From NCBI RefSeq assembly GCF_000011905.1, contig NC_002936.3, forward strand, positions 62,001 through 126,000: a stretch of 64,000 nucleotides of DNA, in the 5' to 3' direction. Origin of the DNA: Dehalococcoides mccartyi 195 (GTDB lineage: Bacteria; Chloroflexota; Dehalococcoidia; Dehalococcoidales; Dehalococcoidaceae). The notes under the pieces were generated by a model, which made no database searches, was not told the origin of the DNA, and worked only from the letters and a program-made list of their open reading frames with translations. The translations under genes were made by a program, and so were the position numbers. Below, in pieces: positions 60,502 to 63,009 of this stretch. Numbering within the stretch: the first letter of the stretch is position 1; each line of letters opens with the position of its first letter.

Positions 60502-60530
60502 TTGACAAAACAGAAATAACTAATTAAAAT
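60502..60530 (+). promoter_or_regulatory. Promoter of the B12-riboswitch operon
   Basis: TTGACA, 17 bases, TAAAAT, placed about 15 bases ahead of the riboswitch. Confidence 0.85.
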
Positions 60531-60544
60531 CAAGTCTAATTGAA

Positions 60545-60735
60545 TATGGTCTGCCGGTGCTTTGTAACAAAAGCTTAAAAGGGAAGCCTGTTAGAATCAG
60601 GTGCGGTCCCGCCGCTGTATACGGGGACGAAAACTGGAATACGCCACTGTTTCATTAAAATGAAGCGGGAAGGCCCGGTGAGTAGGTTGAGCCGTAAGCC
60701 AGAATATCTGCCGGTATAGAGTTTCGCGGAAAATG
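60545..60735 (+). promoter_or_regulatory. Cobalamin (B12) riboswitch
   Basis: The aptamer shows its landmark pieces: GGTGCGGTCCCGCCGCTGT, CGCCACTGT (GCCACTG core), GAAGCGGGAAGG and the B12 box AGCCAGAATATCTGCC (about 60698-60713). Together with the terminator/antiterminator that follows, it should stop transcription of the two downstream genes when cobalamin is plentiful. Confidence 0.9.
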
Positions 60736-60765
60736 GCCGTGGGAAATGGTAAATCCCTGAGCCGA

Positions 60766-60821
60766 AAGGTTTGGGGTTTTATTTTTTTTAATCCTCAAAC
60801 CTTGGTGGTTTGGGGATTTTT
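60766..60821 (+). terminator. Riboswitch expression platform
   Basis: A terminator stem (60790-60818, AATCCTCAAACC with GGTTTGGGGATT, TTGGT loop) with T-run. The segment AAGGTTTGGGGTT at 60766-60778 can instead pair with its left arm, forming an antiterminator. This gives a clear on/off switch. Confidence 0.88.
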
Positions 60822-60838
60822 TTATTATGGGGGGAAAT

Positions 60839-61864
60839 ATGAAAGCGGTCTTGCTGGAAGAACCGGCTAAACTTAGCCTGGCGGAGGTGGACACTCCGTC
60901 CTGCCCCAAGGGTGGTGTGCTCTTGGAGGTAGCCTGCTGTGCAATCTGCGGCACAGACGTAAAGATGTTCCGGCGGGGACACCGTGACCTTAAGTATCCC
61001 CGGATACTGGGGCATGAAATAGCCGCTGTGGTAGCCTGCTCTGAACACCCTGATTTCAAGGCGGGTGACAGGGTGCAGGTTTATCCGGGTATTGCCTGCG
61101 GGGTCTGCCCGCTTTGCCTGCAGGGCAGGGAGAATTTGTGCGGGCAGGTGAAAATAATCGGTTTTAATTATGACGGGGGCTTGGCCGAATATATGGCACT
61201 TCCCCCTGAAAGCCTGCCTGGCGGGCTTAACATAATACCTGAGAATGTTTCAGACGAAGAAGCCTCTCTGGCTGAGCCGCTTGCCAGCTGTATCCACAGC
61301 CAGTCTGTTAGCCGGGTGGGGGACGGAGACCGGGTGCTGGTGCTGGGGGCTGGGCCTTTAGGTCTTTTACAGGCCATGCTCGCCCGGCATAACGGGGCGG
61401 AAAAGGTGCTTATGGCCGAAGTCCTGCCTGACAGGGTGTGTGGGGCGGAACTGGCCTGCCCTGACGGGGTGATAGATTTGGCAAAGACCAGCCTCAGGCA
61501 GGGGGTTTTTGAGCAGACCGGGGGGGCGGGGGTAGATGTGATTTTGATTGCCAGTTCGGGGGTAGAAGTGGGAGAGCTGCCCTCTGTTTTGAGCCCCGGC
61601 GGGCGGATAAATTTCTTTTCCGGTCTGCCTAAAGACCGTTCTGAATTCAGCCTGGACGCCAACACTATCCATTACCGGGAGCTGGCCTTGAGCGGCTCTT
61701 ACGGCTCTACTCCAGCGGATAATACCCGGGCGCTTAGCCTGATAACGGATGGGATTATACCTGTAAAAAGGCTTATCAGCCGGGTAACGGGTATTTCAGA
61801 TATAGAGGAGGCTTTTCTGGGGGTGGAAAAGCTAAAAGGCCTTAAAACCATTATCAAATTTTAA
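60839..61864 (+). CDS. Zinc-dependent medium-chain dehydrogenase, B12-regulated
   Basis: A 341-residue MDR-family dehydrogenase like threonine or sorbitol dehydrogenase. The catalytic zinc residues are in CAICGTDVKMF and YPRILGHEIA; the structural zinc loop is ACGVCPLCLQGRENLC; the NAD site is VLVLGAGPLGLLQAMLA. ATG 60839 follows GGGGGGAAAT. It is the first gene under the cobalamin riboswitch and is followed after 20 bases by the TrpD-like gene. The alcohol substrate is unknown; a role in making or using a cobamide side chain or lower ligand is inferred from the riboswitch only. Confidence 0.85.
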   Translation: MKAVLLEEPAKLSLAEVDTPSCPKGGVLLEVACCAICGTDVKMFRRGHRDLKYPRILGHEIAAVVACSEHPDFKAGDRVQVYPGIACGVCPLCLQGRENLCGQVKIIGFNYDGGLAEYMALPPESLPGGLNIIPENVSDEEASLAEPLASCIHSQSVSRVGDGDRVLVLGAGPLGLLQAMLARHNGAEKVLMAEVLPDRVCGAELACPDGVIDLAKTSLRQGVFEQTGGAGVDVILIASSGVEVGELPSVLSPGGRINFFSGLPKDRSEFSLDANTIHYRELALSGSYGSTPADNTRALSLITDGIIPVKRLISRVTGISDIEEAFLGVEKLKGLKTIIKF

Positions 61865-61884
61865 TAAAAAAGAGGGAAACAAAA

Positions 61885-63009
61885 GTGGACGAAAACAGGG
61901 TAAAAAATTTCGGGGCTGTCATAAGCCGCCTTATTTCAAAGGAAAATCTTAACCGTGAAGAAGTAAAAGACTGTTTCTGCCAGATAATGCGGAATGAACA
62001 GCCTGACCTCCAGCAGGGTGCCTTTATGGCCGCCCTAACCGCCAAGGGTGAAACAGCACCGGAGATAGCCGGTGTCTGGGAAGCTATATATGAGCAGGAT
62101 ACGGTAAGGGTTAAGCCTTTGGTAAATAAACCTTTGGTGGATAACTGCGGTACGGGCATGGACAGCCTGAAGACCTTTAACATCAGCACGGCTGCTTCCA
62201 TTGTGGCGGCGGCGGGCGGGGTGGTACTGGCAAAACACGGTGCCAGAGCCCTTTCCGGCAGCTTAGGGACTATTGATATGCTGGAATCACTGGGTGTTGA
62301 CGTGGAAACAGACGTGGAGACCGTCAGGCGGAGTATTGAAACGGCGGGTATAGGCATTTTTAACGGCATGAGCGCCAAAGTTCACCCCCAGGCTCTTTTC
62401 CGTATCCTTTCCCAGATACGTTTCGGGACTACCCTTAATATTGCCGGTTCGCTGGCAAACCCGGCTTTGCCCCGTTATGCGGTCAGGGGGGTATATTCAG
62501 CCGAACTATTGCAGCCGGTGGCCGAGGTGATGCGTGAGATAGGTTATAAAAAAGCCCTGGTTATCTACGGCTCTGCCCCCGGCGGCCGGGGAATGGATGA
62601 ACTTTCCGTTTTGGGCGAAAGCCGCATTGCCGAGCTTGGCGAAGACGGGCAGATTATTAACTACAGCTTGTCTCCGGCAGATTTTGGTTTAAAACCCGGC
62701 CGGACGGAGGATATTCTTACTTCGGGTGATAAACAACGCGAAACCCTGCGGCTTCTCCGTATTCTTTCTGGCGGTGAAAACGGGGCTGCTTTTAACGCGG
62801 TTTGTCTGAATGCCGCTCCTGTTTTTTATATAGCCGGTGAGGCTGACAGCCTTCAGCAGGGTTATGCTAAAGCGGCGGAGATAATCCGTTCCGGTGCGGC
62901 TATTGCCAAGCTCCGGCAGTGGGTGCAGACCCAGAATTCCAACCCCCAAGCCGGTCTTGCCCGGCTGGACAGCCTGCTGGCTGAACTGGACGGAACAAAG
63001 GTCAGCTAA
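61885..63009 (+). CDS. TrpD-like phosphoribosyltransferase, B12-regulated
   Basis: A 374-residue member of the anthranilate phosphoribosyltransferase fold. The PRPP loop reads NCGTGMDSLKTFNISTAASI where TrpD has GTGGD, then AKHGARALSGSLGTIDMLES where TrpD has KHGNRSVSS..GSADVLE, so the loops differ from true TrpD. The metal site GMDELSVLGESRIAEL keeps the DE pair. No other tryptophan gene is near and a B12 riboswitch controls it, so the acceptor may be a cobamide lower ligand base rather than anthranilate. That is inference; a real TrpD function is not excluded. Confidence 0.82.
   Translation: MDENRVKNFGAVISRLISKENLNREEVKDCFCQIMRNEQPDLQQGAFMAALTAKGETAPEIAGVWEAIYEQDTVRVKPLVNKPLVDNCGTGMDSLKTFNISTAASIVAAAGGVVLAKHGARALSGSLGTIDMLESLGVDVETDVETVRRSIETAGIGIFNGMSAKVHPQALFRILSQIRFGTTLNIAGSLANPALPRYAVRGVYSAELLQPVAEVMREIGYKKALVIYGSAPGGRGMDELSVLGESRIAELGEDGQIINYSLSPADFGLKPGRTEDILTSGDKQRETLRLLRILSGGENGAAFNAVCLNAAPVFYIAGEADSLQQGYAKAAEIIRSGAAIAKLRQWVQTQNSNPQAGLARLDSLLAELDGTKVS

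Follow-up and report, generated by a model that had tools for sequence, protein, structure and literature searches.

A cobalamin riboswitch-controlled gene pair of Dehalococcoides mccartyi, encoding a dehydrogenase and a TrpD-like protein, with a probable accessory role in cobamide lower-ligand assembly

Assembly of the cobamide nucleotide loop is treated as a solved pathway, with CobU, CobT, CobS and CobC as its enzymes. The CobT reaction uses up nicotinate mononucleotide and releases nicotinate, and the ArsAB proteins are CobT homologs that activate phenols. Cobalamin riboswitches usually turn expression off when cobamide is bound, and the bza operons too are often riboswitch controlled. Whether Dehalococcoides dechlorinates chlorinated solvents depends on the lower ligand.

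Here we describe a pair of genes, coding for a dehydrogenase and a TrpD-like protein, in a window of 64,000 nucleotides (bases 62,001-126,000 of the 1,469,720-base single-contig genome of D. mccartyi 195). The TrpD-like protein likely belongs to the same pathway segment as CobT (TIGR03160, TIGR00303), with which it has in common riboswitch control, frequent adjacency and one dehydrogenase::CobT fusion, but it is of an unrelated family. The idea of a lower-ligand activating enzyme links it with ArsAB; these, however, are CobT-family proteins, which it is not, and no finding pointed to the phenol-type activation that the first-pass annotation had proposed. BluB and BzaA-F, which synthesize lower ligands, would likewise feed CobT, but they have no sequence relation to the pair, and genomes with the pair almost always lack BluB and BzaB.

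The riboswitch class, the protein fold and the dehydrogenase type are all known, and the novelty, judged from sequence, would be a subfamily of the TrpD superfamily with a cobamide-linked reaction. We know of no demonstrated function of the TrpD-like protein, and we found no publication on its family, its link with CobT or the dehydrogenase::CobT fusion. The literature on DET0125/DET0126, on trpD with a cobalamin riboswitch, or on anthranilate phosphoribosyltransferase in connection with cobamides gave no account of the pair, the contents of PMC8620254 and PMC12452182 lying outside this negative result.

A two-gene operon behind a cobalamin riboswitch

The operon and its leader comprise the following features.

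60502-60530, + strand: sigma-70-like promoter, TTGACA-17-TAAAAT, 11/12 consensus matches
60538-60729, + strand: complete cobalamin riboswitch aptamer, RF00174, 107.2 bits, E 7.4e-26, model positions 1-189/189
60755-60776, + strand: terminator-like hairpin 1, CCCTGAGCC-GAAA-GGTTTGGGG, then TTTTATTTTT
60768-60801, + strand: putative antiterminator, GGTTTGGGG (60768-60776) pairing with CCTCAAACC (60793-60801); second fold, -16.8 kcal/mol, z -3.05
60790-60818, + strand: intrinsic terminator 2, AATCCTCAAACC-TTGGT-GGTTTGGGGATT, then TTTTTTT; core hairpin -13.8 kcal/mol, z -4.2
60839-61864, + strand: zinc-dependent MDR dehydrogenase, 341 aa, ADH_N and ADH_zinc_N domains
61885-63009, + strand: phosphoribosyltransferase-like protein with a TrpD fold, from a separate clade, 374 aa, GTG start

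The first-pass annotation had placed a promoter, a complete cobalamin riboswitch and a terminator/antiterminator in front of only two genes, an MDR dehydrogenase and a TrpD-fold enzyme, and all of these elements were recovered. Domain searches supported both protein assignments. The operon consists of exactly two genes on the same strand, 20 bases apart, and the next gene downstream lies on the opposite strand. As about 0.9 such promoter sites are expected by chance in the region, the promoter is credible because of its position and not because of the quality of its match. The aptamer clears the RF00174 gathering score of 31.5 and is the sole Rfam match in the whole window. A cobalamin riboswitch is kept upstream of the same pair in relatives.

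The expression platform contains two terminator-like hairpins and one competing helix, with folding z-scores of -3.0 to -4.2. Because the antiterminator is built from the 3' arm of hairpin 1 and the 5' arm of terminator 2, this one helix would open both terminators. Such an architecture fits the usual off-logic of cobalamin riboswitches, from which we infer the direction of switching at this locus. DET0125-DET0126 are reportedly mentioned in a 2009 microarray study by Johnson et al., and a B12 response of the operon may already have been observed there. Elsewhere in the genome, sub-threshold cobalamin riboswitch-like matches were seen at 300591-300733 (30.5 bits), shortly before a cbiZ paralog, and at 599386-599501 (24.8 bits), before btuF.

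For the dehydrogenase, a start at 60839 (MKAVLL...) is preferable to the mechanical start at 60827, since GGGGGGAAAT precedes it and homologs agree. The protein has the catalytic Cys-His-Glu triad, the four-Cys structural zinc site and the GxGxxG motif of zinc-dependent MDR enzymes, and Cys37, His59, Glu60 and the four-Cys site are invariant in A2. It shares domains, zinc ligands and the Rossmann motif with the MDR polyol/threonine dehydrogenases (L-threonine 3-dehydrogenase, sorbitol dehydrogenase, galactitol-1-phosphate dehydrogenase). In contrast to these, it is the constant partner of a TrpD-like gene, and it scores below every NCBIfam equivalog cut-off; the equivalog test for L-threonine 3-dehydrogenase failed by a wide margin (150-160 bits versus a cut-off of 380-458). 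In six distant partner dehydrogenases (L049, L050, L052, L055, L177, L181), the catalytic zinc-ligand His of GHE reads Glu (GEE/AEE).

Fold, active site and phylogeny of the TrpD-like protein

The only domains found in the TrpD-like protein were Glycos_transf_3 and Glycos_trans_3N. It passes the NCBIfam trpD cut-off (TIGR01245, 286 versus 199 bits), which explains the usual annotation of the gene as trpD; many genomes mislabel TrpD-like genes in this way, and pathway predictions are corrupted as a result. In its AlphaFold model (pLDDT 92.9), the predicted structure matches Sulfolobus solfataricus TrpD with PRPP (1zxy; Z 43.7, rmsd 1.8). The fold is that of TrpD, a class IV phosphoribosyltransferase, with Z of about 43 to both the S. 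solfataricus and the Mycobacterium tuberculosis enzymes.

In structures of M. tuberculosis TrpD, the anthranilate carboxylate is held by R193 (PMC9835598, PMC5537072) and N138 (PMC9835598), and PRPP/Mg is bound by GTGGD, S119 and DE (PMC9835598, PMC5537072). The corresponding positions were compared in an alignment of 65 members of the clade of the TrpD-like protein (clade I) with 42 canonical TrpDs. Three sites of the D. mccartyi gene bear on the comparison.

62242-62244, + strand: codon of Ala120, at the position of the KHGN Asn of canonical TrpD (N138 in M. tuberculosis)
62407-62409, + strand: codon of Leu175, at the position of the anthranilate-carboxylate Arg of canonical TrpD (R193 in M. 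tuberculosis)
62596-62601, + strand: metal-binding DE motif, Asp238-Glu239, conserved in 65/65

The ligands of Mg-PRPP (GTG-D, N117, S119 and DE), common to TrpD and the TrpD-like protein, are kept in 65/65 clade I members; GTGGD has become GTGMD, with a Met at the fourth residue as the only difference. The acceptor side, in contrast, has changed throughout. The KHGN position is Asn in 42/42 canonical enzymes but Ala or Ser in every clade I member (65/65), and the anthranilate-carboxylate Arg, likewise present in 42/42 canonical TrpDs, is Leu in 65/65. Two alignments differ over the counterpart of the canonical Arg, giving Leu175 or Gln177, but in both of them the residue is not Arg. Thus, of the altered PRPP and acceptor loops claimed at first pass, the altered acceptor loop stands, and the PRPP site proved intact. 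Further differences from TrpD near the acceptor pocket are a two-residue insertion (FNGMS) and a new Arg173, which is invariant in clade I, conserved in both odd clades (see below) and displaced by one helical turn relative to the Arg that was lost. Arg173 could bind another, anionic acceptor.

The phylogeny bore out a separation from TrpD. In a tree of 89 sequences, with clades read from the printed tree, the TrpD-like protein fell in a 46-row clade (support 100/98) apart from 30 canonical TrpDs (100/99). A second, normal trpD, whose existence had been raised at first pass, was found elsewhere in the genome, coding for a protein 37% identical to the TrpD-like protein. It lies in a complete trp operon with a T-box leader, trpE-G-D-C-F-(DAHP synthase)-B-A, and groups in the tree with other Dehalococcoidia inside the canonical TrpD clade. 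This ruled out the TrpD-like gene as the only trpD of the genome, and, as far as sequence and context can tell, its product is not the tryptophan TrpD. A plasmid search returned matches only at the ordinary trpD level. One candidate fusion, a 624-residue TrpD-like ORF (L121), was rejected as a reading-frame extension.

Distribution of the pair and its linkage to CobT

Clade I spans at least six bacterial phyla and Euryarchaeota. Homologs with 45-61% identity were found in Chloroflexota, Bacillota, Thermodesulfobacteriota, Spirochaetota, Planctomycetota and Omnitrophota and, among archaea, in Methanothrix, Methanomassiliicoccus and Methanophagales. The module reaches methanogens and methane oxidizers, annotated as tryptophan and alcohol dehydrogenase genes. 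The dehydrogenase gene adjoins the TrpD-like gene in 55 of 62 clade loci (29/33 bacterial, 26/29 archaeal), compared with 0/37 canonical trpD loci; the clade counts include L046 and L185, which lie outside the clade in the tree and have neither dehydrogenase nor cobamide context. Of the bacterial clade loci, 28/33 have a cobalamin riboswitch no more than 2.2 kb away or a cob/hem gene no more than 5 kb away, versus 1/27 canonical loci (Fisher p 6e-11, a value that overstates independence because the loci are related).

Gene order in other phyla ties the pair to CobT and, together with riboswitch control, upholds the link with cobamide biology proposed at first pass. Four Dehalogenimonas-like genomes have btu-cbiZ-cbiB-cobD, riboswitch, dehydrogenase, TrpD-like gene, cobT, cobS, (cobC,) cobU. 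In about 12 Methanothrix loci, archaeal cobT is followed by the dehydrogenase and TrpD-like genes, and a Methanophagales contig has the order cobT, TrpD-like gene, dehydrogenase. Desulfobacterota carry dehydrogenase, TrpD-like gene and cobT (L177), with cobS added in L178 and cobD and cbiB in L179 and L183. In L181, cbiZ lies directly 3' of the TrpD-like gene. The pair sits between cobQ and cobB on an Omnitrophota contig (L047) and inside a full de novo hem/cbi operon of an uncultured bacterium (L049), and it is therefore not limited to salvaging organisms. Finally, genome G652 encodes, directly after the TrpD-like gene, a 716-residue dehydrogenase::CobT fusion (L184:9383-11533, + strand; ADH_N 27-124, ADH_zinc_N 164-284, DBI_PRT 360-697). 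Such fusions usually mark enzymes of one path. MiaB-like, AI-2E transporter, tRNA deacylase and UbiA neighbors of archaeal loci vary between lineages and were judged unrelated.

In D. mccartyi itself the pair does not adjoin cobT. A btu-cbiZ-cbiB-cobD-riboswitch-cobT-cobS-cobC-cobU operon occurs twice in this genome, at ~598-607 kb (L033) and ~629-638 kb (L002, L003), about 31 kb apart. In other Dehalococcoides, the pair is followed at 3.4 kb by a CobB/CbiA-like gene on the opposite strand (L024:11141-12532, L025:10718-12109), a position that falls beyond the end of the D. mccartyi window.

CobT is present in nearly all genomes with the pair; it was missing only from two metagenome assemblies that are incomplete and from a single clade II genome. 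This coexistence rules out the TrpD-like protein as a substitute for CobT; by domain search it is not of the DBI_PRT family (PF02277), and a separate, real CobT is present. Conversely, many genomes of the same order have CobT without the pair, so the pair is optional and not a general requirement for CobT function. BluB was not found above cut-off in any of 38 pair genomes (0/38), and the ThiC-family genes of pair genomes, where classified, were ThiC and not BzaB, with one exception. In genome G327 (L186, L206, L207), which has a TrpD-like gene, two ThiC-family genes stand in tandem, and the second of these exceeds the BzaB cut-off; neither dehydrogenase nor riboswitch was seen adjoining that TrpD-like gene.

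Possible roles of the pair

The TrpD fold and the TIGR01245 score would suit a second anthranilate phosphoribosyltransferase for tryptophan, with the riboswitch incidental. Given a complete trp operon that already includes a trpD, the separate clade, the replacement of the anthranilate-binding Arg and Asn in all members and a cobamide context in many phyla, such a role is scarcely credible. Cobalamin riboswitches are known to control B12-independent isozymes, and the pair might stand in for a B12-dependent enzyme under B12 shortage, as do MetE or NrdAB. Repeated linkage to CobT, one fusion with it and placement inside cobamide operons are not what would be expected of a backup isozyme, and we consider this highly improbable.

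The pair might also serve salvage or clean-up, recycling by phosphoribosyl transfer or pyrophosphorolysis what remodeling releases (alpha-ribotides, odd bases, nicotinate) and returning free base for CobT. Dehalococcoides and Dehalogenimonas live by remodeling (PMC11321594), and cbiZ accompanies the pair in L181 and in the Dehalogenimonas-like operons. However, the pair is also found in the de novo operon of L049, between cobQ and cobB in L047 and, in Methanothrix, next to cobT, with no sign of remodeling there, which makes salvage unlikely. TrpD-type transfer yields beta-ribotides, and the TrpD-like enzyme might supply the CobT donor by making nicotinate mononucleotide or an analogue from PRPP. 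Donor supply would fit established CobT chemistry, the tight cobT linkage and the dehydrogenase::CobT fusion, but it would leave the dehydrogenase without a role, and NAD synthesis already makes the donor; we hold it to be quite unlikely.

We favor, as the probable role, an accessory module in the assembly of the cobamide nucleotide loop (lower ligand), whose task would be to make or convert a substrate for CobT, most likely on the base side. The observations behind this reading are the anatomy of the riboswitch, a separate clade that kept the PRPP site and lost the anthranilate contacts, the fixed partnership with the dehydrogenase, gene linkage to CobT with a fusion in one genome, and the co-occurrence of CobT. 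When B12 is scarce and no cobamide is bound, the antiterminator would form and both genes would be transcribed; with cobamide bound, the terminators would form instead. The TrpD-fold enzyme would bind Mg-PRPP as TrpD does and react with an acceptor other than anthranilate, and the NAD(P)-dependent zinc dehydrogenase would act within the same short path, on one of its substrates or products. We infer that PRPP is the donor and that the pair acts upstream of CobT, which would then join the lower-ligand base, supplied by the pair as such or as a precursor, to ribose phosphate. If true, this CobT-tied two-enzyme module would represent an extra step absent from pathway models, and one that bears on bioremediation, because the lower ligand governs dechlorination by Dehalococcoides.

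Any one specific reaction for the accessory module has a low probability. One conceivable but very unlikely chain is an oxygen-free, Bza-independent route to a benzimidazole-type base. The TrpD-like enzyme would phosphoribosylate a neutral aromatic amine, e.g., an o-diamine, the second amine taking the position of the anthranilate carboxylate. Oxidation of the sugar part by the dehydrogenase would then retain C1 as the ring carbon and release the remainder as a four-carbon sugar phosphate, with the base going on to CobT. Such a route, if true, would mirror BluB chemistry. As D. mccartyi needs supplied DMB to remodel cobamides (reviewed in PMC11321594), the pair is unlikely to provide the whole of DMB synthesis starting from central metabolism.

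Other TrpD-like proteins were also encountered. A second odd clade (clade II) comprises ten sequences (support 100/100; L057, L059, L061, L063, L065, L070, L077, L078, L079, L082), with GTGSD, KKGAR and YLPGEAF motifs and a different acceptor loop. It pairs with an MDR dehydrogenase in 7/11 loci; L070 is under a cobalamin riboswitch, and L057 adjoins hemC-cobA/hemD-hemB-hemL. Clade II may be a relative of clade I with a similar role. A small fourth group (100/100; L046:9989-11107, L156/L185) has neither dehydrogenase nor riboswitch, and its L046 gene lies near genes for a HAD hydrolase and a methyltransferase. On an archaeal contig, a clade II pair and a gene for a RibD-type reductase are close to the gene of a third, very divergent TrpD-like protein (L079:6803-7972). 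In a Dehalococcoidia genome, an mttB trimethylamine methyltransferase gene with the Rfam pyrrolysine-insertion element PYLIS_3 (L032:2106-3545) lies near a clade II pair.
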